Positions 4,884 through 32,599 of a stretch of DNA of 37,182 nt are shown here, one piece after another. Source of the DNA: Gammaproteobacteria bacterium (GTDB lineage: Bacteria > Pseudomonadota > Gammaproteobacteria > SZUA-152); the NCBI GenBank assembly GCA_013151575.1, contig JAADHZ010000044.1, positions 1 through 37,182 of the forward strand. The letters run 5' to 3'. The notes under the pieces are model-generated. The model did not search any database. It was not told the origin of the DNA and saw nothing but the letters and a program-made list of their open reading frames with translations. Position 1 is the stretch's first letter; each line of letters starts with the position of its first letter. Made by a program: the position numbers and the translations under genes.

Positions 4884-6986
4884 CTAGCTGCGCCACATGG
4901 CGTCAAAGGCTGCGCCCATGGCGCGGGCAAAACCCGGCGCATCACACAATGCCGAGCCTTGCAGTTGGCCACGAAGATTGTCCCGTAGTGCAGAAAGAGC
5001 GGGCAGGTCCGAGGCCAATTCCCGCGCAATTCGCAGGTAATCCGCTTCATCGTGAGCAATTAGCCGGGGCAGCCCGGCGTGGTTGAGTAGGCTGGCACCC
5101 ACGCGCCCGGCGTGCCGGTCTCCGCAAAGGCTTACCACCGGCACTCCCATCCATAGGGCTTCGCAGGTGGTGGTGGTGCCGTTGTATGGGAACGGGTCCA
5201 GGGCGATGTCTATGTGATGATATTGGGCGAAGTGGTCGGCCCGCGAGGGCAGCTGGGCCAACAGTGTCAGGCGTTGCGCCTCTATTCCCTGTGTTTGAAA
5301 ATGGCGAAGCACGCCAGCATGCACATCGACATCGGCCAGCTGTTTTGCCTTCAGCAGCAGGCGGCTACCCGGCAGTTCACATAACAGTTTCGCCCACAGG
5401 TCCAATACCTCGCCGGTCACCTTGGAAAAGTTGTTCATGCAGCCGAAGGTGATATGTCCAGCCTGCGGGGCTGGTAATGGCGCGACGTCGGGCATGGGGG
5501 TGAGGGGCTGAAAACACAGAAAACCGTTGTCCAACTGTTGCAGTTTTTCGGTGTGAAAAGCCTCGCTGCCGTGTGGGTCGGCCGTATCATCGGTGATCCG
5601 GTAATCCATATTCAGCAGGCCGGAGGTGTTGGGGTAGCCTAACCAAGTGGCCTGCACGGGTGCAGGTTTGAGGCCCATCATGGTAAGCCGGTTGCCGTTG
5701 GTGTGGCCACTTAGGTCCACCAGGATGTCGATGCTGTCGGCACTGATGGTGTCGGCTAGTGCCCGGTCGGTGCGGCCCAGGGTGTCGTGCCAATGGTCGC
5801 TAAGTTCCTGGAAACGCGCGGTCACCTCGTCTGGATGTTCGGTTCCCGAATAGCAAAATAGCTCGAAGCGGTCGCGGTCAATGTGTTCAAACAGCGGCAA
5901 CAGAAAGTAGGCGCAGGAGTGGGTACGAAAATCCGCTGACACGAAGCCGATGCGCAGCTGCGCTTTTTCGGGATCGCGGTGTGGATGTTGGCATGGTTGC
6001 ACGCCGTGTCTGGCCCGCTCCGTTTGCAGGGCTTCACCAAATTGTCGGCTCAGCTCCAGACTCTGCTGTCGCGAAATAGACAAATTGTAGTTGAGCGTAA
6101 ACAGCAGGCAGTCCCATATTTTGCCGTCAAAGGCGGCCGTTTTCACACTGCGGCGTAACCGTTCGAGCGATCGGTCGATATCCCCGGATTCCCGCAAGGC
6201 ATTGCCCATGGCCGACAGTGCGGTGCTGTTTTGCGGGTCCAGCTCCAGCGCCCGCTGGTAACATTCGCTGCCTTCGCGTAGCTGCCATCCTTTTACCAGT
6301 GTGGTGCCGAGATGGGTCCACAGCTCCGGGTTGTCCGGCGACAGTTCCACCGCCCGCCGACAATATTGTGCGGCCTCCTGCTGGCGTCCCTGTCCCCGCA
6401 ACAATACGCCGAGATTCGCCAGCGGTTCCGCGTAGCCGGGGTTCAAATCAAAGGCCGCGCGGTAGCAGCGCTCCGCTTGCTCGTTGTTGTTGCGCTGCCG
6501 GTACAGGGTGCCGAGGTTGTTGTGGGTGAATACATCACGAGGATTAAGCACGATGGCGTTTTGGTATTGCGCAATGGCCTCGTCATATTCACCCAGCGCC
6601 TGATGAATGCCGCCCAGATTGGCAGCCGCTTCAGCATAGCGAGGTTGCAGCGCCAGCGCCTGCTGCTGAGCTTTTTTCGCCGCTAACAGTTGTCCGCAGG
6701 ACTTTTGCACATTGCCCAGATTGTAATAAAAAAGTGGGTTGCGATTGTCGATGGCGACAGCCCGTTCGATGAGTTGTGCGCCGGACTCGGCGTCACCCTG
6801 TTGAAACCGGGCCAGCCCCAGCAGGTGCAGGGCCTCGGCCAGGTGAGGAACCTCTTTCAGCACCTTACGATAGCTGCGCTCGGCGGTGGTGAGATCACCG
6901 GCCTGATGGGCGGCCACAGCGCGGCGCATGATGCCATCTATTTTCTGCTGCTTTTTGGGGCTGAGCGGTTTGCGAGTGGCGGCCAT
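4884..6986 (-). CDS. TPR-repeat O-GlcNAc transferase-like glycosyltransferase (GT41)
   Basis: This 700-residue protein has about eight tetratricopeptide repeats (roughly residues 20-320), for example EALHLLGLARFQQGD and AEAAANLGGIHQALGEYDEA. A C-terminal GT41/SPINDLY-type catalytic region spans about residues 345-695. Catalytic-domain signatures are RIGFVSADFRTHS, QATWLGYPNTSG and ALDPFPYNGTTTTCEALWMG. The family transfers GlcNAc or other sugars from a nucleotide sugar to Ser/Thr of proteins, with the TPR superhelix binding the acceptor. No signal peptide is seen, so it is cytoplasmic. No flagellin, adhesin or sugar-nucleotide gene is nearby, so the acceptor cannot be guessed. The start ATG 6986 has no strong ribosome-binding site. 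Confidence 0.9.
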   Translation of the reverse strand: MAATRKPLSPKKQQKIDGIMRRAVAAHQAGDLTTAERSYRKVLKEVPHLAEALHLLGLARFQQGDAESGAQLIERAVAIDNRNPLFYYNLGNVQKSCGQLLAAKKAQQQALALQPRYAEAAANLGGIHQALGEYDEAIAQYQNAIVLNPRDVFTHNNLGTLYRQRNNNEQAERCYRAAFDLNPGYAEPLANLGVLLRGQGRQQEAAQYCRRAVELSPDNPELWTHLGTTLVKGWQLREGSECYQRALELDPQNSTALSAMGNALRESGDIDRSLERLRRSVKTAAFDGKIWDCLLFTLNYNLSISRQQSLELSRQFGEALQTERARHGVQPCQHPHRDPEKAQLRIGFVSADFRTHSCAYFLLPLFEHIDRDRFELFCYSGTEHPDEVTARFQELSDHWHDTLGRTDRALADTISADSIDILVDLSGHTNGNRLTMMGLKPAPVQATWLGYPNTSGLLNMDYRITDDTADPHGSEAFHTEKLQQLDNGFLCFQPLTPMPDVAPLPAPQAGHITFGCMNNFSKVTGEVLDLWAKLLCELPGSRLLLKAKQLADVDVHAGVLRHFQTQGIEAQRLTLLAQLPSRADHFAQYHHIDIALDPFPYNGTTTTCEALWMGVPVVSLCGDRHAGRVGASLLNHAGLPRLIAHDEADYLRIARELASDLPALSALRDNLRGQLQGSALCDAPGFARAMGAAFDAMWRS

Positions 6987-19798: not shown

Positions 19799-22700
19799 GT
19801 GATGCCTGTACCGATATTTTTCACCTCGTTGATGGGGTTAGTGTTCGCTACCCTGCTGAGCGCGTGCGCCAGTGGCCGCCAAACGCTTCCTCCCCCGGCG
19901 CCTGCCGATGTCAGCCCCTCCGTTTTACAGCAAAACCAACCCGCCATGGTGAGGGTGCGACTGGCCTCCAGCCCCGCCGGGACCGAAATGACCTTGGTGC
20001 CTGCCGGTCCCTACGTCTCCCACCAATTGTCGCTTTCACGGCCGCCGCAAGGCATGGTCAGCGATGGGTTACGGGCCTTTATCGTTAGCGACGAGGGCTT
20101 GCTGGTGGTGGGTTTCCCCGAGTCACAACCTGCCCGGGTGCTGGGAAAATTGTCCGGGCTCGCTGCGCCGGTAACGCAGTTAGCCGTGGGTTCGCAGCGA
20201 CTGCTCATGGCGCTGGACGATGGGCAGCTGTTGTTAGTGGATGTCACGCAGCCGACGAACCCGGTGATCCGCGCGCGCTACCGGACAGAGGCCCCGGTGA
20301 TGGATGTGCAATTCAACGATGGTCTGTTTTACCTGCTGTTGAACAACAACGCCCTGCTGGCCATGAAGGCGGATACTGGCAGCTCATCCGTCCAGCCCGC
20401 GGGTCGTTGGCAATTACCAGTGCAAGCCTCAGCGCTGGCAGTGCGTGGCAATCACATTTGGCTGGCCGGGCCACAGGGCGTGAGTGTGCTGGCGCTGGGC
20501 CCGGAGCAACCTCGCGTGCTGGATCGTTTTACCCAACTCGGCGCGTCCAACGGAGAGGCATGGGACATTCAGTTGCACGAAAATCTGGCGTTGGTGGATG
20601 CCGGCCGGGGCGGCCTGGTGGTGTTCGACATCAGCGACCCGGACCGGCTGCGCTGGACGGGCAGCTTCAGCAAGCGCGGTCCCATCCACGGCCTGAGCCA
20701 GCACCCCGAAACCGATGCCGCATGGGTGAGCCTGGACGGCGGGGTCGTGTTGTCACTGGGTTTGGGCAATCCTGAACTTCCCAACAGCGGGGCGGCCTTT
20801 CTCGCGCCCGGCCCAGTGCGAGCCATGGCAGCGGCGGGCCCGGCGCTGCTGGTGGCCACTGCGCAACGTGTGCAGCGGGTGATCATGGGTGAAGAACACG
20901 AGGCGGCCATATCGCCCGAGGGAGTGAATCAGGGGGGCAGTCGCCGGGGCGTGATTCGTGATGGCATCCTCTACGTGGCGGACTGGTTTTCCGGTCTGCA
21001 TCTCTACGACATCAGTATCCCGAGGCAACCGCGCCACCTGGGTAATTACCATACCCCCGGCTCCAGCAAAGGCGTGACGTTACTGGACCACTTCGTGTTG
21101 GTGGGTGACGACGATCAGGGCCTGCAAATCATCGACATCGCCGACCCCCGTCACCCCAGCTGGGTGTCGGAACTGCCCCCACAGGCAATGGCCCGAATGG
21201 GGTTGGCTTACACGATGAAACTCGTGGGTACACGTTTGTACCTGGCCGACCATCGCGGCGGTTTTCACATCATCGACCTGAGCGATATTCGTCATCCCCG
21301 GCGCCTCGGCGGTGTGGACACCCCCGGTAAATCCTGGGCCATCGACGTGAGGGAGGACGGTGACCGGCGCGTCGCTTTCGTGGCCGATGACAGCAGTGGC
21401 CTGCTGGTCTTCGACGTCACCAAGCCCGAGCACATTCGGCAAATCGGCCGCTTCGACCCCGGCGGCCAAGCGGAGGACATCGTGTTACGGGACGACCTCG
21501 CCTACGTGGCCTTCTTCGACAAAGGTTTTTACGTGCTGGACGTGAGTGACCCCACCCACCCTCGACAACGGGGTCATGTGGCCATTCCTGGCAATGCTCG
21601 AGGCATCGCGTTGGCGGGTGACCGCGCCTATATGGCCGGTTGGGAATCGGGCCTGCAAGTGCTGGATATCAGCGACCCCTCGACCCCGCACATCATCGGC
21701 GCGTTCGACACCGACGGCGCTGCCTGGGGCGTCACCATCGACGGTGACACCGCCTATGTTCTGGACTGGTGGGGAGGCATCAAGGTGCTCGATATCAGCC
21801 AGCCAGCACAACCCTCCCTGCTCGCCCGCTACCATGCCCGAGGCACGCTGCGGAAAATGAGCACTAAGGGCAACTATCTGTACGCCGCCAGCGGCGCGGG
21901 CGGTGTACAGGTGTTCGATATTCGCAACCCGCTGAATCCTATCTGGGTACGAGGGCTGAATCTGGCAGGCGACAGCCAGGATCTGTGGCTGGAAGACGAC
22001 CGCGCCTACGTAGCCAGCGGTGGCGGCGGGGTGGCGATACTGGACACGTTGGACCCGTTTTACGCCCAGCAGATTGGTGCAATTGACACCCCAGGCGAGG
22101 CCTATCGTGTGTGTGCATACAACGAATATCTGTACGTGGCCGACCGCCAGGCTGGGCTGCTGGTATTGGACGTGCGTGACCCCCGGCGACCCCGGCAAGT
22201 GGCGCAATACGACTTGTGGCCGAAGGACCTGTGGATCGACGAGCAGGGCCTGTGGGTGGCCACCGCCACCGGCATCACGCGCTGGACACTCGGCAATAAC
22301 GGCCGTTTGGGGCAAGCGCAGAGTCGGACTGTGCCCGACGTGACCCTGGTTCGCGCGCAGGAACAGCAACTGGCTACGGCCCGCGCTGGCGGGCTGGTGG
22401 AATTATGGCGGGTGGGCGCCGACGGCATTCAGCCGCTGGCTCGTTACCCGATGCACGAACCCGTCGTGGATCTGCAACTCGCGGGTAACAGCCTATACGT
22501 GCTGACCCGCAGCGGCCTGACCGTGCTGGAACGGGACAATGCCGACAGACTGCGGCCCAATACCCACTATCCCGCCACTGGCGTGGCGACCGGAATGGTG
22601 TTGGCAAACGACGCGGCGTTTTTCAGCGGAGGTGTGTCAATGGCCTCAGTGTCGTTACTGCCGCCGGTGTCGATTACCCCCACTACCAGCGGTGCTTTCG

Positions 22701-22888
22701 CGATGGTTCTGCCGAAGGGCCTGCCCCGCGGCGACTACCATCTGCAATTTACCGCGCCCGGCGGACAACGCTGGATCCAGCCCTGGGCTTTGTCCGTGCA
22801 ATTCCAGGCACCCAACCAGCGTCGTTTCGGGCTGGCGGCCTTCCGTCGCTTGTTGAAAACACCGCTAAAACCACCGCCGGAACCCTAA
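19799..22888 (+). CDS. Large LVIVD-repeat beta-propeller lipoprotein
   Basis: This 1029-residue predicted lipoprotein has a signal peptide ending LLSAC, with lipidated Cys22 or Cys23. At least eleven repeats of about 42 residues follow, clearest at about residues 400-820. Their core pattern is LxVLDISDPxxP and a later YVAD/YVLD strand, the LVIVD repeat, which is expected to form one or more beta-propellers. Earlier diverged copies occur near residues 135 and 270. The last 120 residues do not show the repeat. LVIVD proteins are surface or periplasmic and their partners are unknown. GTG 19799 or ATG 19802 could be the start; the ribosome-binding site is weak. Sequence between repeats is diverged at DNA level, so the repeats are old. 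Confidence 0.9.
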   Translation: MMPVPIFFTSLMGLVFATLLSACASGRQTLPPPAPADVSPSVLQQNQPAMVRVRLASSPAGTEMTLVPAGPYVSHQLSLSRPPQGMVSDGLRAFIVSDEGLLVVGFPESQPARVLGKLSGLAAPVTQLAVGSQRLLMALDDGQLLLVDVTQPTNPVIRARYRTEAPVMDVQFNDGLFYLLLNNNALLAMKADTGSSSVQPAGRWQLPVQASALAVRGNHIWLAGPQGVSVLALGPEQPRVLDRFTQLGASNGEAWDIQLHENLALVDAGRGGLVVFDISDPDRLRWTGSFSKRGPIHGLSQHPETDAAWVSLDGGVVLSLGLGNPELPNSGAAFLAPGPVRAMAAAGPALLVATAQRVQRVIMGEEHEAAISPEGVNQGGSRRGVIRDGILYVADWFSGLHLYDISIPRQPRHLGNYHTPGSSKGVTLLDHFVLVGDDDQGLQIIDIADPRHPSWVSELPPQAMARMGLAYTMKLVGTRLYLADHRGGFHIIDLSDIRHPRRLGGVDTPGKSWAIDVREDGDRRVAFVADDSSGLLVFDVTKPEHIRQIGRFDPGGQAEDIVLRDDLAYVAFFDKGFYVLDVSDPTHPRQRGHVAIPGNARGIALAGDRAYMAGWESGLQVLDISDPSTPHIIGAFDTDGAAWGVTIDGDTAYVLDWWGGIKVLDISQPAQPSLLARYHARGTLRKMSTKGNYLYAASGAGGVQVFDIRNPLNPIWVRGLNLAGDSQDLWLEDDRAYVASGGGGVAILDTLDPFYAQQIGAIDTPGEAYRVCAYNEYLYVADRQAGLLVLDVRDPRRPRQVAQYDLWPKDLWIDEQGLWVATATGITRWTLGNNGRLGQAQSRTVPDVTLVRAQEQQLATARAGGLVELWRVGADGIQPLARYPMHEPVVDLQLAGNSLYVLTRSGLTVLERDNADRLRPNTHYPATGVATGMVLANDAAFFSGGVSMASVSLLPPVSITPTTSGAFAMVLPKGLPRGDYHLQFTAPGGQRWIQPWALSVQFQAPNQRRFGLAAFRRLLKTPLKPPPEP

Positions 22889-23195: not shown

Positions 23196-24587
23196 ATGTC
23201 GACTTCGATCACCGTTCGCCGCTATCTCGATACTCAGGATGTACGTTATTCCATTATGCAAAGTCCTGTGGATGCTGAGGGGCGCTGGCAAGGCAAAATC
23301 GGGGACATTGCCCCGGTGTCCGTGGCCTGCGCAAAAATCCTCAAAGATGTGAGCGGCCTGGTCATGGCGGTGTTGCCTATTACCCACCGCCTGCGCATTG
23401 ACGCGCTCAACCGCCAGCTGCACCGCCGTCTCACGCTAGCGGAAGAACAGGATTACCGGGGGGTATTTGCCGATTGTGCCCAAGGCATCCTGCCCGCGCT
23501 GGGTGAAGCCTACGGTTTTGAGACGGTGATCGACGATGCACTTTTGGATCAGGATTTCGTGTTCGTGGCGTCGGGCAACGAAGGCGAATTGATCCGCATG
23601 ACGGGCGAAGACTTTCAGTTGCTGCACAGCAATGCGTGGTACGGCAATACCTTTTCACAGATATCGGAACGCAGGCCAGGGGCGGATGTATCGCCTCCCG
23701 TCGTAAACAAAGCGGCACGCGTGCCTTCTGCTGCACAGCTCAAGCAACGCATTGAACGCGTCACAGAACTGCCGACTCTGCCATCGTTGGCGCAAAAAAT
23801 TATTCAGCTCAACGCCAACCCCTATGCCCATGCCGAGGACCTCGCCAAGCTGGTGGAGAAAGACCCCAGCCTCAGTGCGCAAATCGTGCGGTATTCCCAA
23901 TCTTCTTTTTATGGGTATCAGGGCAAGGTTGCCTCCGTGCGGCAAGCCATTTCCCGGGTGCTGGGATATGACATGGTGATGAATATTGCCCTGGGCGTGG
24001 CGGCAGCGCGCCCCTTCAAGGGGCCGACCGAAGGGCCTTTGGGACTGAATGCTTTCTGGCGTCACGCCACGTACAGTGCGGCGCTGGCACAGGCCCTGTG
24101 CAAACAGGTGCCCCGTGATCTGCGCCCCCGTCCGGGCACGGTGTACCTCTCTGGCTTGTTGCACAATTTCGGATTTTTATTGCTGGGGCATTTGTTCCCC
24201 AAGGAATTTGGCATATTACACGATGCGGTACGCCGCCAGCCCGAAGCATCGGTGGTGACGCTGGAACAACAGCTGCTGGGTGTAACCCACATGGAAATCG
24301 GCGCCTGGCTGATGGAGGCCTGGAATATGCCGCAGGAAATCGTGGTGGTACAGCAAGAGCATCACAACCCGGAATACGCAGGACCACACGCCAACTACGT
24401 GCATCTGATCACTCTGGTAGACACGCTGCTGAAGGGGCATGAGCTGGGGGATGCCGTCAGCGAGGAGATTCCTCCCAACTTATTGGTAACACTAGGCCTC
24501 AGCGAAGAAGCGGTGGCCGAGGCGCTGGATAAAACCATTGAAAACCACGACGACCTCGACACCATGGCCCGCCAGCTGGTGGCGTAA
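23196..24587 (+). CDS. YbaK/ProX-like deacylase domain fused to HDOD domain
   Basis: This 463-residue fusion has an N-terminal YbaK/aminoacyl-tRNA editing-like domain (about residues 1-150). It shows CAKILK, with Lys47 at the position of the catalytic lysine of YbaK, and a typical FVASGNEGELIRM strand. A C-terminal HDOD domain spans about residues 185-390, with ELPTLPSLAQKI and EKDPSLSAQIVRYSQS. The usual His-Asp pair of HD domains appears as LLHNFG, so metal hydrolase activity is unlikely; HDOD domains generally act as signalling or scaffold modules. The YbaK part may clear mischarged tRNA or bind aminoacyl-tRNA. Coupling the two suggests a signalling output linked to tRNA charging, but this is inference. 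The gene is convergent with rhlB. Confidence 0.85.
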   Translation: MSTSITVRRYLDTQDVRYSIMQSPVDAEGRWQGKIGDIAPVSVACAKILKDVSGLVMAVLPITHRLRIDALNRQLHRRLTLAEEQDYRGVFADCAQGILPALGEAYGFETVIDDALLDQDFVFVASGNEGELIRMTGEDFQLLHSNAWYGNTFSQISERRPGADVSPPVVNKAARVPSAAQLKQRIERVTELPTLPSLAQKIIQLNANPYAHAEDLAKLVEKDPSLSAQIVRYSQSSFYGYQGKVASVRQAISRVLGYDMVMNIALGVAAARPFKGPTEGPLGLNAFWRHATYSAALAQALCKQVPRDLRPRPGTVYLSGLLHNFGFLLLGHLFPKEFGILHDAVRRQPEASVVTLEQQLLGVTHMEIGAWLMEAWNMPQEIVVVQQEHHNPEYAGPHANYVHLITLVDTLLKGHELGDAVSEEIPPNLLVTLGLSEEAVAEALDKTIENHDDLDTMARQLVA

Positions 24588-26159: not shown

Positions 26160-26486
26160 GTGAGTGGAAACATTGTCTACCTCACTGACGATTCTTTTGA
26201 AGACGAAGTGGTAAAGGCCGAAGGCCCCGTGCTTGTGGACTACTGGGCGGACTGGTGCGGTCCCTGCAAAATGATTGCCCCCATCCTTGATGAGATTGCC
26301 GAAGAATACAAAGGCAAGGTCAAAGTGGCCAAACTCAACATTGATGAGAACCCCGCCACCCCGCCCAAATACGGGATTCGCGGCATTCCCACCCTGATGT
26401 TATTCAAAGGCGGCAATGTGGAGGCCACCAAGGTGGGTGCGGTGTCAAAATCCCAGCTGACCGCCTTTCTCGACAGCAACACCTGA
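26160..26486 (+). CDS. trxA: Thioredoxin 1
   Basis: This 108-residue cytoplasmic thioredoxin reduces protein disulfides, using electrons from thioredoxin reductase. The active site is WCGPCK, with Cys33 and Cys36, followed by the cis-Pro loop [10 protein letters not shown]. Length is normal and there is no signal peptide, so it is the cytoplasmic TrxA rather than a DsbA or TlpA type. The start is GTG 26160 with GGAGG seven bases upstream. Family members usually have NPGTAPKY where this has NPATPPKY, a minor change. It lies between rhlB (divergent) and rho (same strand), the common gammaproteobacterial order. Confidence 0.97.
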
Positions 26487-26970: not shown

Positions 26971-28227
26971 ATGAACCTCACTGAACTCAAACAAAAAACC
27001 GCCTCCGATCTTATTGAACTTGCCCGCGAGAGCGGCGTGGAAGGCATGTCACGAGCACGCAAGCAGGACATTATTTTTGCCCTGCTCAAGGCTCACGCCA
27101 AAAATGGCGAGGATATTTACGGCGATGGGGTGCTTGAAATTCTTCAAGACGGTTTCGGCTTTTTGCGTTCGGCAGACAGCTCTTACCTGGCCGGACCGGA
27201 TGATATTTACGTATCGCCCAGCCAGATTCGCCGTTTCAGCCTGCGCACGGGTGACACCGTATCGGGCAAGATTCGGCCACCGAAGGACGGCGAACGCTAT
27301 TTCGCGTTACTCAAGGTGTCCGAAATTAACTTTGACCGGCCGGAGAACACCAAAAACAAAGTGCCGTTTGAAAACCTAACACCACTGTTTGCCAACAGCC
27401 GCTTACAGTTGGAAATGGGCAATGGCAGCACCGAGGATCTCACGGCTCGCGTGATCGACATGGCCGCCCCAGTAGGTAAGGGACAGCGCGGGTTAATCGT
27501 GTCGCCACCTAAATCCGGCAAAACCATGATGATGCAGTACATCGCCCAGAGCATTGCGGCGAATCATCCCGAGGTGTACCTCATCGTGTTGCTGATCGAC
27601 GAGCGCCCGGAAGAAGTGACCGAAATGCAACGCTCGGTGCGTGCTGAAGTGGTGTCCAGCACCTTTGACGAACCGGCCAGTCGCCATGTGCAGGTGGCCG
27701 AGATGGTGATTGAAAAGGCCAAACGTCTGGTGGAGCACAAGAAGGATGTGGTGATCCTGCTGGACTCCATTACCCGCTTGGCGCGTGCCTACAATACGGT
27801 GATCCCGTCTTCGGGCAAGGTGCTCACCGGTGGCGTGGACGCCAATGCCCTGCACCGACCCAAACGTTTCTTTGGCGCAGCGCGCAACATCGAGGAAGGC
27901 GGCAGCTTAACCATTCTGGCCACCGCCCTGGTGGACACCGGCTCGCGCATGGATGACGTGATTTACGAGGAATTCAAGGGCACCGGCAATATGGAAGTGC
28001 ATCTGGATCGCCGCATCGCGGAAAAACGTATTTACCCCGCGATCGACATTAACCGTTCCGGCACCCGCCGCGAAGAGCGCCTGACCGATAAGGATGAGCT
28101 GAAAAAAATCTGGATCCTGCGCAAGTTGCTACACCCCATGGACGAGCTAGCGGCCATTGAGTTTCTGCTGGACCGCCTCAAGGACACCAAAACCAACGAC
28201 GAATTTTACGCCTCGATGAGGCGATAA
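26971..28227 (+). CDS. rho: Transcription termination factor Rho
   Basis: This 418-residue hexameric RNA-dependent ATPase ends transcription at untranslated C-rich RNA. The N-terminal domain (MNLTELKQK, then the cold-shock-like RNA-binding region with GFGFLRS) covers about residues 1-125. The Walker A segment is SPPKSGKT (178-185), and later [13 protein letters not shown] and [15 protein letters not shown] carry the Q-loop and Walker B region. [20 protein letters not shown] is the secondary RNA-binding/R-loop region. Length matches E. coli Rho (419). The start ATG 26971 follows GAGAA. It is downstream of trxA and preceded by a rut-like leader. No insertion domain is present. Confidence 0.98.
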
Positions 28228-28315: not shown

Positions 28316-29071
28316 ATGAATCAACGACTACTGGTGACTGTGGCGGTGCTTGTTGCCGTCCTGCTTCTGGGCGCGTGTTCGCGCGAGCGCAATACCGAGC
28401 TGATGGATGCATCCAAAAATGGCGATTTGGACGCGGTGAAATCAATATTGAATCGCGGGGCGAACATCAACCAGCCGAGCAACAAAGGCAAAACAGCACT
28501 GATGTTTTCCGTGTCCGAGGGCCACACGGACGTAACGCGCTTTCTGATCGAACAGGGCGCGGACGTCAATATGGCGGACGAATACGGCACCAGCGCGCTG
28601 ATCGTGGCCGCCACCGCCGGGCATGACAAGGATGTCGTCGCCCTGCTGGAAAGCAACGCCAAGACAGACGTTCGCGACGAAAGTGGTGGCGCACCTTTGG
28701 TGAACGCCATTTATTTTGGCCATGTCGAGGCGGTCAAAGCCCTGCTGGATGACTCTTCCCGCCAGGCCCGTGCGCTGGAGAAACAGGAAGGGGAAGAACT
28801 GCTGTTGCTGGCCGCAGGCCTTGGTCACAGCAAAATAGTGCAGGCGCTGGTGGAATTCGGTGTGGACGCCAACGGGCGAGGACTGAAACAGCGCACGGCG
28901 ATGATGGCTGCCGCCTATTTTGATAAACCTGATATTGTACGAGCGTTGTTACAGTTGGGCGCAGACCCGGCATTACGCAACGTCGACGGAAGCACCGCGT
29001 TGGACGTGGCCACCGACCGTGGCAGTGATGACATCGTTATCCTGCTGCGCAACGTGCCGTCAGCGCCATAA
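28316..29071 (+). CDS. Ankyrin-repeat lipoprotein
   Basis: This 251-residue predicted lipoprotein has a signal peptide ending LLLGAC, with lipidated Cys21 and Ser at +2, compatible with outer-membrane sorting in the E. coli rule. The mature part holds about six ankyrin repeats, for example LMDASKNGDLDAVKSILNRG and GKTALMFSVSEGHTDVTRFL. Ankyrin repeats mediate protein-protein contacts, so it is expected to bind a partner at the periplasmic face. It follows rho by 88 bases on the same strand and converges on the triheme cytochrome genes, beyond which lies a second ankyrin lipoprotein. Its partner is unknown. Confidence 0.85.
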   Translation: MNQRLLVTVAVLVAVLLLGACSRERNTELMDASKNGDLDAVKSILNRGANINQPSNKGKTALMFSVSEGHTDVTRFLIEQGADVNMADEYGTSALIVAATAGHDKDVVALLESNAKTDVRDESGGAPLVNAIYFGHVEAVKALLDDSSRQARALEKQEGEELLLLAAGLGHSKIVQALVEFGVDANGRGLKQRTAMMAAAYFDKPDIVRALLQLGADPALRNVDGSTALDVATDRGSDDIVILLRNVPSAP

Positions 29072-29112
29072 TTTCTCTTAGTTCCACGATTTTCCCGTCA
29101 CTGGTTCGACGT

Positions 29113-29895
29113 TCACCACCATTTTGGCCCGGAGCCCTCGTGCGGCACGCTATGGCAGCGTTCACAAGTGAACAGCGCAAAAGCCACCTTGTCATGGCAG
29201 ACACCGCAGTATTCGCCGCGTAACACCTTGTTCATAGTAATAGGGTTGGCGTTTTCTTTCGCTTCAAAAATGGCCGGGTGACAATTGGAGCAGGCCAGCC
29301 ACCGAGTATGCCGCAGATGAGGGAATTTAACCCACGGCATGAACTGGGTGTTTTTCATCATGATATCCAAATCCAGCAGGGTCATCTCACTGTTACCCAA
29401 CAGATCCGCGCGGGGGGCGATGTGGCCCTGGTCCAACGCTTTCACCCAATCGACTTGCTGGCGACGATCGCGGGGGAAATCCTTCATGGCGACATTGGGA
29501 TCCTGCAATACGGTCAAGGCGTCATTGTCGAGATCGTGGATGCCGTCATCGCGTGGCGATTCGCTGGCTCCAGGCTTCACCACACTGAGTAACTTGTTGG
29601 TGGTGAGCCTTATTTGGCCCGCCGAGGCGGCGGTTTCAAGGCTGTTCACCGCCGACTGCCGGGGTGTATCCAGGCTGGCGATGGCGGCGGCCACAAACGG
29701 GGTAATCTCTGGAGTGTCGGCGTTAGCAGCTGGCTGGCTGGCGGTTTTTTGCGTGGGGAGGGTTGCAGGCGTACCCGGCTCCGGCGGACGCGGGGCGATG
29801 CAGGACGCGAGCAATATACCCCCAAGGGCGATGGCGATGGTGATGCCGACGTGGTTGAGCGTTTTTCGTCTTGTCCGGCTCATCGTCCCGCACAT
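29113..29895 (-). CDS. Triheme c-type cytochrome lipoprotein (c7-type), copy 1
   Basis: This 260-residue predicted lipoprotein has the lipobox LLASC (Cys32). The C-terminal 90 residues carry three heme-binding motifs, CSNCH, CGVCH and CERCH, and extra histidines in FPHLRH that could serve as distal ligands. The arrangement fits the c(7)-type triheme family. It is expected at the periplasmic side of a membrane, carrying electrons. Between lipobox and hemes is a conserved block (DGIHDLDNDA, RRQQVDWVKAL, MPWVKFPH) shared with copy 2. I chose ATG 29895, which overlaps the copy 2 stop as TGATG and has AAGG upstream; ATG 29883 is an alternative. No cytochrome maturation genes are nearby. Confidence 0.85.
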   Translation of the reverse strand: MCGTMSRTRRKTLNHVGITIAIALGGILLASCIAPRPPEPGTPATLPTQKTASQPAANADTPEITPFVAAAIASLDTPRQSAVNSLETAASAGQIRLTTNKLLSVVKPGASESPRDDGIHDLDNDALTVLQDPNVAMKDFPRDRRQQVDWVKALDQGHIAPRADLLGNSEMTLLDLDIMMKNTQFMPWVKFPHLRHTRWLACSNCHPAIFEAKENANPITMNKVLRGEYCGVCHDKVAFALFTCERCHSVPHEGSGPKWW

Positions 29896-30542
29896 CAGCC
29901 CTTGGGGCGCACGCCCATGAATTTTTTCCAGTTTTCCGGGGTGCCCGCGTGGGGTACGTTGTGGCAGCGTTCGCAGGTCCAGAGCGCGAAGGCGACTTTG
30001 TCGTGACAACGCCCACAGTGCTCACCAGCGAGGATGCCATCCATGGAGGGCTGGTTGGCCCCTTTTTTCATGATGAAAATGTTGGGGTGACAGTTGGAAC
30101 AGGCCAGCCATTGGGTATGGGCCTGATGGGGGAATTTAACCCACGGCATCTGCCCCGTGTCCTTGAACAGAATATCCAGATTCAGCACTTGCATTTTGGC
30201 GTCACCCAGCAGGTTAGCCCGAGGCTCAATAATGCCCAGCGCCAGGGCTTTCACCCAGTCAACGCCGCCCCGACGGTCGAGCGGGAAGGCGCTGAGGGCC
30301 TCGGCGGGTTCCTGTAGGGTGCTGATGGCGTCATTGTCGGGATCGTGGATGCCGTCGGTGGACAGCTCTTCGGTTTTGACTTCGGTGGCGAATTCGCGAT
30401 TGTCTCGCCAGCGCCTGCCTTCGGCCACGCCCCCCTCCACCACATAGGGAGCGACGTGGGTTGCTGTGCTAGGCGAGCAAGCGGCAAGAAACATCGGCGC
30501 TCCCAGCGAAATGAGCAGTGCCATGGCTAATCCGCGCAGCAT
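29895..30542 (-). CDS. Triheme c-type cytochrome lipoprotein (c7-type), copy 2
   Basis: This 215-residue predicted lipoprotein has the lipobox FLAAC (Cys22) with Ser at +2. The three heme motifs CSNCH, CGRCH and CERCH lie in the same positions as in copy 1. The two share long blocks: DGIHDPDNDA, VDWVKALALG, MPWVKFPHQAH, ACSNCHP and CERCHNVPH. They therefore arose by duplication, with copy 1 carrying a longer low-complexity linker after the lipid anchor. The genes overlap and must be translated together. Role: periplasmic or membrane-tethered electron transfer, partner unknown. A hairpin (30568-30586) separates it from the upstream ankyrin gene, 48 bases away, so the three may form one operon with graded expression. 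Confidence 0.85.
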   Translation of the reverse strand: MLRGLAMALLISLGAPMFLAACSPSTATHVAPYVVEGGVAEGRRWRDNREFATEVKTEELSTDGIHDPDNDAISTLQEPAEALSAFPLDRRGGVDWVKALALGIIEPRANLLGDAKMQVLNLDILFKDTGQMPWVKFPHQAHTQWLACSNCHPNIFIMKKGANQPSMDGILAGEHCGRCHDKVAFALWTCERCHNVPHAGTPENWKKFMGVRPKG

Positions 30543-30567
30543 GAAAATCTCCCAGATTGTGGTGTGT

Positions 30568-30586
30568 CCCGGTTCGTTGCACCGGG
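30568..30586. repeat. Hairpin between ankyrin and cytochrome genes
   Basis: CCCGGT (30568-30573) and ACCGGG (30581-30586) form a 6-bp GC stem around a 7-base loop. There is no T-run. In the minus-strand transcript it lies between the ankyrin gene stop and the copy 2 start, where it could stabilise mRNA or give partial termination. Confidence 0.4.
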
Positions 30587-30590
30587 GTGG

Positions 30591-31163
30591 TTATAATTCT
30601 GCGCCGGACTTTTTCAGCAGCTCCAATATTTCATTGTCGCCTTCATTTTTAGCCATGCGGGCGGCGGTTCTGCCGTCTTTGGCCTTGACGTTAACGTCCG
30701 CGCCGCTTGCGAGCAATGTTTTTACCATGCCCACATGCCCGCGATTGACCGCCCATAACAACGCAGTCCACCCATCTTTGCTGGCAGCGTTGACGTTAGC
30801 ACCGCGTGATAGCAGTAACTGTGTGGCTTCCAGCTGGTTTTTGCTGGCGGCCCGCATCAGGGCAGTCCAGCCTTTTTCATCGAGGGATTCAATGTTGGCC
30901 CCGGCATCCAGCAGCGCCGTGATACTGGCGGTTTTATTTTGGCGCGCGGCCAGCATCAAAGCGGTCCAGCCATAATTATTACGCTCGTCCACCGATGCGC
31001 CGTTTTCCAGGGACTGGCGCAGTTCAGCCGGATCATCGGATAAAGCCAGCTTCATCATCTCAGTGTTACCGTCGCAGGCGCTCAGCAGGCCCAGTAAGGC
31101 CAGGCCGACAAAAAATCCTGGCGTGCGGTGGGAAAACACGTGACGAAATAATACGTTAATCAT
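30591..31163 (-). CDS. Ankyrin-repeat lipoprotein with Asp at +2
   Basis: This 190-residue predicted lipoprotein has the lipobox LLSAC (Cys30) followed by Asp31. In E. coli an Asp at +2 keeps lipoproteins in the inner membrane. Four ankyrin repeats follow, such as YGWTALMLAARQNKTASITALL and KGWTALMRAASKNQLEATQLLL, ending near the C-terminus. It is therefore a candidate inner-membrane tether that could dock the downstream cytochromes. The start is ATG 31163; the frame continues to a TTG at 31202 but this adds no useful signal. It is first in the minus-strand run ahead of the two triheme cytochromes. Confidence 0.85.
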   Translation of the reverse strand: MINVLFRHVFSHRTPGFFVGLALLGLLSACDGNTEMMKLALSDDPAELRQSLENGASVDERNNYGWTALMLAARQNKTASITALLDAGANIESLDEKGWTALMRAASKNQLEATQLLLSRGANVNAASKDGWTALLWAVNRGHVGMVKTLLASGADVNVKAKDGRTAARMAKNEGDNEILELLKKSGAEL

Positions 31164-31333: not shown

Positions 31334-31633
31334 ATGGCTGCCATCTCTTGCCCCCACTGTAAGCAAAATACGTTCTCCTGGTGGGATAAATACCGTGCCA
31401 GCAAGTGGTTCCTACTCACCTGCGATGGCTGTAAAAGGCGTTCCTGCGCGCAGCCGGTTGTGTTGGCCGCGATATATTTTTTGTATGTGTGGGACGTTAT
31501 GCTGTTTGGTTATCTGGCATACCTCGATTCACTTTGGTTCCTACTGGTGATGGTGGTGGGTTGGCTGATCCTCGATTATTTCACCATTTACGTTCCGCTT
31601 TCGCCGCTACGCGATAAACCACAACCCAAATAG
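31334..31633 (+). CDS. Small zinc-ribbon membrane protein of unknown function
   Basis: This 99-residue protein has an N-terminal zinc-ribbon-like pair, CPHC (residues 6-9) and CDGC (about 30-33), followed by two hydrophobic segments (AIYFLYVWDVMLFGYLAYL and FLLVMVVGWLILDYF). The cysteines would face the cytoplasm with the tail after the second segment. I know no function. ATG 31334 is used because the zinc-ribbon begins directly after it; ATG 31301 in frame would add 11 residues and no visible feature. The gene is 48 bases upstream of the PfkB kinase on the same strand. Confidence 0.65.
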   Translation: MAAISCPHCKQNTFSWWDKYRASKWFLLTCDGCKRRSCAQPVVLAAIYFLYVWDVMLFGYLAYLDSLWFLLVMVVGWLILDYFTIYVPLSPLRDKPQPK

Positions 31634-31681: not shown

Positions 31682-32599
31682 ATGACCAGCGTGCTTGGGG
31701 TCGGCATTGCCACCCTCGACATTGTTAATGTTGTAGACGGCTTTCCCGCAGAAGATGCGGAGCTGCGCGCACTGGCCCAGTCGCAACGACGTGGCGGTAA
31801 CGTCACCAACACCTTGGTGGTGCTCAGCCAGCTGGGGCATCAATGTAGCTGGGCCGGTACGTTGGCAGACGACAGCAGCAGCGAGCATATTCGTGCGGAT
31901 TTGGCAGGTTTTGATGTAAACCTCGACGCGGTGAACACATTGTCCGGCGGGCGAACGCCGACCTCGTACATCATCCTGAATCAACGCAACGGCTCGCGGA
32001 CCATCGTCCACCACCGCGATTTGGCCGAATACGCCTTCGCCGATTTCCGGCGCATCAATGTCGAACACTTTCACTGGGTACATTTCGAGGGCCGCAACGT
32101 GGCGGCTACCCGGCGCATGCTGGAACATCTGCGCAAGGTTGCGCCGCAGTTACCCGTATCGCTGGAAATCGAAAAACCAAGGCCGGCCATTGAGTCGCTG
32201 TGTGGCCTGGCGGACCTGTTGCTATACTCCCGCTGCTACGCCCGCGAGCAAGGGTTTGATGGAATTGACGATCATAGGGGCCCAGCCGCATTTCTCCACC
32301 ACATGCGCCGACAGGCACCACAGGCCGATCACGTCGTCAGCTGGGGAGAAACTGGCGCCTATGCCCTGGCCAGGGATGCTGACACCGCAGTCTTCAGCGC
32401 GGCACGGCATCTGCCAGATGTGGCCGACACTCTCGGGGCTGGCGACACCTTTAATGCCGGTATCATCGACGCCCGACTGCGGGGGCTGTCACTGAGTGCG
32501 GCACTGGACAAGGCCTGTACCCTGGCCACAGAAAAATGTACTCGCCATGGTTTGGGCGGGATTCAAGCTACTTATAGCTACTTACAGCCACTTCGGTAA
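31682..32599 (+). CDS. PfkB-family sugar kinase (ketohexokinase-like)
   Basis: This 305-residue protein belongs to the ribokinase/PfkB family, which phosphorylates sugars or nucleosides with ATP. The N-terminal glycine region RRGGNVTNTLVVLSQLG contacts substrate, and the C-terminal signature DTLGAGDTFNAGIID contains the catalytic Asp and anion hole. The sequence resembles fructokinase or ketohexokinase-type members more than adenosine kinase, but the substrate cannot be fixed. There is no ribosome-binding site visible before ATG 31682. It lies 26 bases upstream of thiO on the same strand; the link may be only positional, although thiazole or sugar-phosphate metabolism is conceivable. Confidence 0.85.
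   Translation: MTSVLGVGIATLDIVNVVDGFPAEDAELRALAQSQRRGGNVTNTLVVLSQLGHQCSWAGTLADDSSSEHIRADLAGFDVNLDAVNTLSGGRTPTSYIILNQRNGSRTIVHHRDLAEYAFADFRRINVEHFHWVHFEGRNVAATRRMLEHLRKVAPQLPVSLEIEKPRPAIESLCGLADLLLYSRCYAREQGFDGIDDHRGPAAFLHHMRRQAPQADHVVSWGETGAYALARDADTAVFSAARHLPDVADTLGAGDTFNAGIIDARLRGLSLSAALDKACTLATEKCTRHGLGGIQATYSYLQPLR

Follow-up and report, generated by a model that had tools for sequence, protein, structure and literature searches.

The Uet (undecaheme electron transfer) complex was described for Tenderiales and has also been found in Gallionellaceae (PMC5371394, PMC10734462). Its periplasmic triheme cytochromes UetD, UetE and UetG in Candidatus Tenderia electrophaga carry a c7-type triheme domain, and a tetratricopeptide repeat (TPR) protein of the Tenderia triheme cluster was suggested to align cytochromes (PMC5371394). 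In the Geobacter nanowire cytochromes of the c7 kind (TIGR04257, PF14522) such domains form a string of four. Ankyrin-repeat proteins accompany heme proteins of another kind: periplasmic AnkB of the Pseudomonas aeruginosa katB-ankB operon has the catalase KatB as its partner (cited in PMC2830190), and Cj1386 aids KatA in Campylobacter jejuni (cited in PMC4518328). Here we describe a locus of two ankyrin-repeat lipoproteins, ANK_A and ANK_B, and two triheme c7-type cytochrome lipoproteins, CYT1 and CYT2, in contig JAADHZ010000044.1 of the gammaproteobacterial assembly GCA_013151575.1; the whole stretch analysed, 37,182 nucleotides, is referred to as the window. Three genes, ANK_A, CYT1 and ANK_B, make up the conserved core of the locus, here called the triad; the other cytochrome, CYT2, is optional. 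The conserved gene unit suggests a protein scaffold that would hold periplasmic electron carriers. No published description of ankyrins with triheme or multiheme cytochromes was found in the open-access literature.

In the window the four genes lie between rho and a gene for a PfkB-family kinase in the order ANK_B, CYT2, CYT1, ANK_A (Table 1). An earlier note on this DNA had called all four open reading frames (ORFs), with ANK_A, CYT1 and CYT2 following one another on the minus strand and ANK_B converging from the rho side. These calls were confirmed, as were the TGATG overlap of CYT1 and CYT2 and the lipobox of each of the four proteins (LLSA-C, LAS-C, LAA-C and LGA-C). ANK_A precedes CYT1 on the same strand with a spacing of 48 bases, 41 bases separate the stops of the convergent ANK_B and CYT2, and ANK_B lies downstream of rho after a gap of 88 bases. 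The cytochromes contain three CxxCH motifs each, the six that the note had counted, and each has one c7-type triheme domain (PF14522 / TIGR04257) that scored above the curated cut-off of 40 bits (59.8 bits for CYT1 and 62.1 bits for CYT2). Both ankyrins are far above Pfam Ank cut-offs; with five repeats in the structure model of ANK_A and about seven by motif in ANK_B, the locus has about 12 repeats instead of the "about ten" first counted. A promoter scan of the locus region revealed no sigma-70-like site.

The complete triad was found in 34 genomes from four gammaproteobacterial families: 21 of the 24 genomes of the source genome's own family (f1), one of f34, two of f97, and 10 out of 13 searched genomes from the f53 order. 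The inner order and the convergent ANK_B are constant in all of them, with the linkage spanning a contig break in one f1 genome (G013). The triad adjoins rho in f1, f34 and f97. In f53 it stands in other surroundings, without rho, kinase or thiO, in the same inner order and orientation and at times with additional genes between CYT1 and ANK_B; an HDOD gene lies close by in two genomes of this family and may be a remnant of the rho neighbourhood. In several f1 genomes (L040, L042, L045-L047) the flank beyond ANK_A is replaced and the triad is kept. CYT2 is optional because it is absent from nine f1 genomes of the source genome's own genus, from f34 and from f53; in about half of the relatives CYT1 alone stands between both ankyrins. 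The four-gene unit of the earlier note is therefore real in the window as one variant of a three-gene core, and the cytochrome pair was rejected as the unit. The association of the locus genes is far beyond chance. In three genomes, all of genus g3 (G017, G020 and G022), both ankyrins are gone from either side of the retained cytochromes, and neither was found elsewhere in these genomes; the tree described below suggests that the loss occurred in one ancestor.

We compared CYT1 and CYT2 with described triheme cytochromes. Their closest solved structures are c7-kind triheme-repeat proteins (3ov0, 3oue and 1rwj, with E values down to 7.5e-25), and they share with the Geobacter proteins three CxxCH motifs at matching spacing. 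Unlike the nanowire string of four, each has a single triheme domain, which follows a lipid anchor and an additional N-terminal part. In CYT1 this part, DGIHDP...VDWVKAL, is conserved, and the Cys and His residues of the heme motifs are invariant in the alignment. The UetE- and UetG-like proteins that were read share the N-terminal DGIHD...VDWVKAL. The AlphaFold model of CYT1 was too poor for use (predicted local distance difference test score, pLDDT, 54). A first search returned CYT1 relatives in all 24 f1 genomes and in 3 of 33 others; in a class-wide sample relatives were present in 53 of 369 genomes, many of them within Uet-like clusters that also contain tetraheme and undecaheme genes.

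A tree of 147 triheme proteins, whose bootstrap values are not fully settled, separated a UetE-type group, a UetG-type group, a clade of soluble solo trihemes, a CYT2 clade (support 99/88) and a CYT1 clade (99/98), so that CYT1 and CYT2 each fall in a clade of their own outside both Uet clades. Judged by sequence, they and the periplasmic trihemes of the undecaheme Uet conduit are paralogues. The co-occurrence check proposed in the earlier note did not refute its system idea: 28 of the 32 rows of the CYT1 clade adjoin ankyrins, three are the ankyrin-free g3 proteins, and one is an extra CYT1 copy in G018, a genome that also has the full gene set. Lipoboxes were detected in 42 of 46 tree rows of module members or g3 descendants vs 2 of the 22 other non-Uet rows; the Uet rows are mostly soluble, with a lipobox-like match in 5 of 79. 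The four module rows without a lipobox include one CYT2 and possibly mis-started ORFs. Lipidation of the cytochromes, as predicted from these motifs, tracks the module.

CYT1 and CYT2 differ from the Uet trihemes in clade, lipid anchor and ankyrin neighbours, and also in lacking an adjoining barrel or undecaheme gene. No linked undecaheme, tetraheme or barrel gene was found beside the four-gene locus, which therefore does not itself qualify as a Uet conduit. Neither was an outer-membrane porin or large multiheme cytochrome of the porin-cytochrome conduit kind (Mtr/Mto/PCC) found beside the four genes in the ORF list of the window. Uet paralogues are nevertheless present in the source genome, whose assembly is fragmented (173 contigs, 86% complete): contig C120 (L069, 1-16388) contains a Uet-like cluster with a tetraheme gene, a barrel-sized gene and three triheme genes, and no undecaheme gene was found on it. 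The Uet-like cluster, together with an order that comprises a single family, tentatively points to Tenderiales as the order of the source genome. In another family, f76 (L172, L174 and L175), a soluble triheme with DSGIY replacing DGIHD adjoins rho with no ankyrin; in the two longer f76 loci a PfkB kinase is also near it.

The ankyrins were examined for conserved surfaces. The model of ANK_A (pLDDT 92.9) retrieved in Foldseek only designed and natural ankyrins and was uninformative on a partner. In both proteins concave positions (fingers and inner helices) are more conserved than convex ones, with p = 2.3e-4 for ANK_A and 6.9e-6 for ANK_B, values that are rough because positions within a protein are not independent. 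The conserved face of ANK_A has Trp at the finger of three repeats, together with His, Arg and Lys; that of ANK_B has Lys, Asn, Phe and Arg. ANK_A superposes on designed ankyrin repeat proteins (DARPins) with template modelling (TM) scores of about 0.8 to 0.9. Unlike them it is natural and lipid-anchored, and its conserved residues sit at the positions that DARPins vary for target binding. Such faces indicate conserved partners, without naming them. A periplasmic ankyrin beside a heme protein recalls the gene setting of AnkB and KatB; AnkB is a single ankyrin, whereas a pair flanks the cytochrome here. No catalase gene adjoins the ankyrins, whose neighbours are triheme cytochromes, rho and the PfkB kinase.

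The two ankyrins have different histories. Orthologues of ANK_B (at least 227 bits) were confined to module families in the class and phylum samples. The class sample held 12 orthologues at 284 bits or more, the next protein scoring 178, and in the phylum sample the best non-orthologue reached 173 bits; among the 398 phylum genomes no ANK_B was found beyond the source genome's own. In the order of f53, the contig with ANK_B ends 0.8 kb away in G209 and inside ANK_B in G395, so cytochrome neighbours cannot be judged in these two. ANK_A, on the other hand, also exists in solo forms, most of which are divergent to a small membrane protein and a PfkB kinase, as at the source locus. These two genes are the ancestral neighbours of ANK_A, and ANK_A predates the cytochrome association. 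One well-supported branch (99/97) splits module from solo ANK_A. Mature residue 136, in the finger of the last repeat and at a target-contact site, is Arg in every one of the 34 module proteins and either Trp or Leu in all 19 solo ones, the sole separating position by the criterion used; because the branch is single, it may represent one substitution kept since. Relatives of the trihemes occur in 29 of the 36 class-sample genomes with a strong ANK_A match vs the 53 of 369 overall (Fisher p ~4e-22), a difference to which related families contribute. In most loci of either kind, module or solo, the small protein with two CxxC pairs (Table 1) stands divergent to ANK_A; it was not seen beside cytochromes where ANK_A is absent (the g3 genomes and f76).

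In enterobacteria, Asp at position +2, next to the lipid Cys, retains a lipoprotein in the inner membrane, and lipoproteins with other residues go to the outer membrane. Asp occupies this position of ANK_A in 34 of 34 module genomes and in all lipidated solo orthologues read, and never in ANK_B, CYT1 or CYT2. In f22 (L185, L210, L211 and L212) ANK_A has lost the lipid Cys and has an Arg-rich start and a hydrophobic segment before the GDKNT stretch. This N-terminus is best read as an inner-membrane anchor; alternatively, it may be cleaved by signal peptidase I. LolB was present in 15 of 15 f1 genomes searched, which, with the lipoboxes, fits lipoproteins sorted by the Lol system. Since Asp at +2 is confined to ANK_A, which has a relative with a probable transmembrane anchor, ANK_A and the other proteins are likely in opposite membranes, though the +2 rule is weak in this lineage: the inner membrane is the probable place of ANK_A and the outer membrane that of ANK_B, with the cytochromes probably tethered at the inner leaflet of the latter.

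Table 1. Features of the ankyrin–cytochrome locus and its neighbours, in positions of the window.
Feature	Positions	Strand	Basis or remark
Thioredoxin, rho context	26160-26486		
rho	26971-28227	+	Locus anchor in families f1, f34, f97
ANK_B, ankyrin lipoprotein, 251 aa, ~7 repeats by motif	28316-29071	+	ORF, Pfam Ank match
ANK_B lipid Cys codon	28376-28378	+	Ser at +2
CYT2, triheme c7-type cytochrome lipoprotein, 260 aa	29113-29895	-	PF14522 / TIGR04257
CYT2 lipid Cys codon	29800-29802	-	Ile at +2
CYT1, triheme c7-type cytochrome lipoprotein, 215 aa	29895-30542	-	PF14522 / TIGR04257
CYT1 CxxCH trio: CSNCH 30087-30101, CGRCH 30003-30017, CERCH 29961-29975	29961-30101	-	
CYT1 lipid Cys codon	30477-30479	-	Ser at +2
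ANK_A, ankyrin lipoprotein, 190 aa, 5 repeats; heads minus-strand unit	30591-31163	-	
ANK_A lipid Cys codon	31074-31076	-	Asp at +2
Small protein, two CxxC pairs and hydrophobic segments	31337-31633	+	No Pfam match
PfkB-family kinase	31682-32599	+	Beyond ANK_A, divergent from ANK_A

Elsewhere in the window are genes for a 700 aa TPR protein with a family 41 glycosyltransferase domain of the O-GlcNAc transferase type (4884-6986), a protein of 1029 aa whose start is lipobox-like and which carries LVIVD beta-propeller repeats (PF08309, 242 bits; 19799-22888), and an aminoacyl-tRNA editing domain (PF04073) fused to an HDOD domain (23196-24587).

We consider it quite possible, though short of probable, that ANK_A–CYT1–ANK_B is an envelope module in which an ankyrin scaffold of the inner and outer membrane docks tethered triheme carriers for electron transfer. 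The gene content, the linkage, the joint absence of the ankyrins, the lipidation of the cytochromes and the conserved faces were observed; from sequence we infer the membrane sides, the binding of cytochromes by ankyrins and the role in electron transfer. CYT1 and CYT2 would be lipid-tethered electron carriers of the Uet periplasmic triheme family, and the ankyrins would dock them, or redox partners, through the concave faces, ANK_A from the inner membrane and ANK_B from the outer. Given such docking, electrons would pass the periplasm between positioned carriers rather than by free diffusion. A stronger version, in which the ankyrin pair, one per membrane, spans the periplasm and makes a fixed triheme bridge from the inner membrane to outer conduits like Uet, seems to us rather improbable.

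Several observations weigh against the docking module. Solo orthologues of ANK_A were found in eight other families (19 read) with no cytochrome neighbour, and in one of these, f140, no triheme match was found. The g3 cytochromes persist nearly identical without ankyrins. The 34 triad genomes are related, and a single event may underlie the ankyrin losses and another the Arg change. Global charge complementarity between the ankyrins and CYT1 was considered and rejected, as all three mature proteins have an acidic average. The membrane-fusion lipoproteins of resistance-nodulation-division (RND) systems failed as backing for the +2 rule, with Gly, Asn or Thr at this position in the lineage; in Pseudomonas Asp is not required for retention, and the rule has been questioned outside enterobacteria (PMC6469965). 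Because of this the outer-membrane assignment is weak, and the inner side of ANK_A is better supported than the outer side of the other proteins. The suggestion in the earlier note that the ankyrins dock or organise the cytochromes is partly supported: the conserved concave faces of both ankyrins and the restriction of ANK_B speak for it; the greater age of ANK_A, its occurrence without cytochrome neighbours and the three g3 genomes speak against it.

The main rival explanation is that the ankyrins are assembly or protection factors that aid maturation or stability of the lipidated cytochromes, with no part in electron flow. The close position of ANK_A ahead of CYT1 on the same strand would suit such factors, as would the precedents of AnkB for KatB (cited in PMC2830190) and Cj1386 for KatA (cited in PMC4518328), in which an ankyrin encoded next to a heme protein is reported to be required for its activity. 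However, Uet and soluble trihemes of the same family need no ankyrins, and two differently anchored ankyrins exceed the need for a chaperone. The g3 genomes bear on this explanation too: since they lack both ankyrins and hold almost unchanged cytochromes, the ankyrins are not essential for keeping the cytochromes, which counts somewhat against assembly factors and scaffold alike. On balance we regard the assembly role as unlikely, while taking it seriously.

Alternatively, ANK_A could have an old envelope role of its own, perhaps with the small membrane protein and the PfkB kinase; the ankyrins would then bind a non-cytochrome partner, and the cytochromes and ANK_B would have joined later. Solo ANK_A does stand beside the small protein and kinase in seven families (f23, f37, f70, f75, f80, f124 and f140), and the three finger tryptophans are mostly common to solo and module forms. 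Such an origin does not readily account for the confinement of ANK_B to module families, the absence of both ankyrins in g3, the restriction of Arg136 to module ANK_A, the lipidation that tracks the module, or the enrichment of ANK_A genomes in trihemes even where unlinked, to which shared ancestry contributes; we hold it to be doubtful. That the four genes are neighbours merely by descent, with no functional link, is very improbable. The stretch from rho to fur is often conserved whole within f1, but the triad is kept in f53, where it has no rho, kinase or thiO neighbours, and in the f1 genomes with a replaced right flank, the ankyrins are missing together in g3, and ANK_B was not found outside module families. 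With the tree and the linkage in hand, we rejected neutral synteny as an account of the triad.

A question still open for extracellular electron transfer is how electrons get through the periplasm from the inner membrane to outer-membrane conduits; the usual answer is freely diffusing cytochromes. If the docking module is real, a membrane-anchored ankyrin pair around a tethered triheme would be a concrete, testable alternative to diffusion, and ankyrins would join TPR proteins as suggested organisers of cytochromes.

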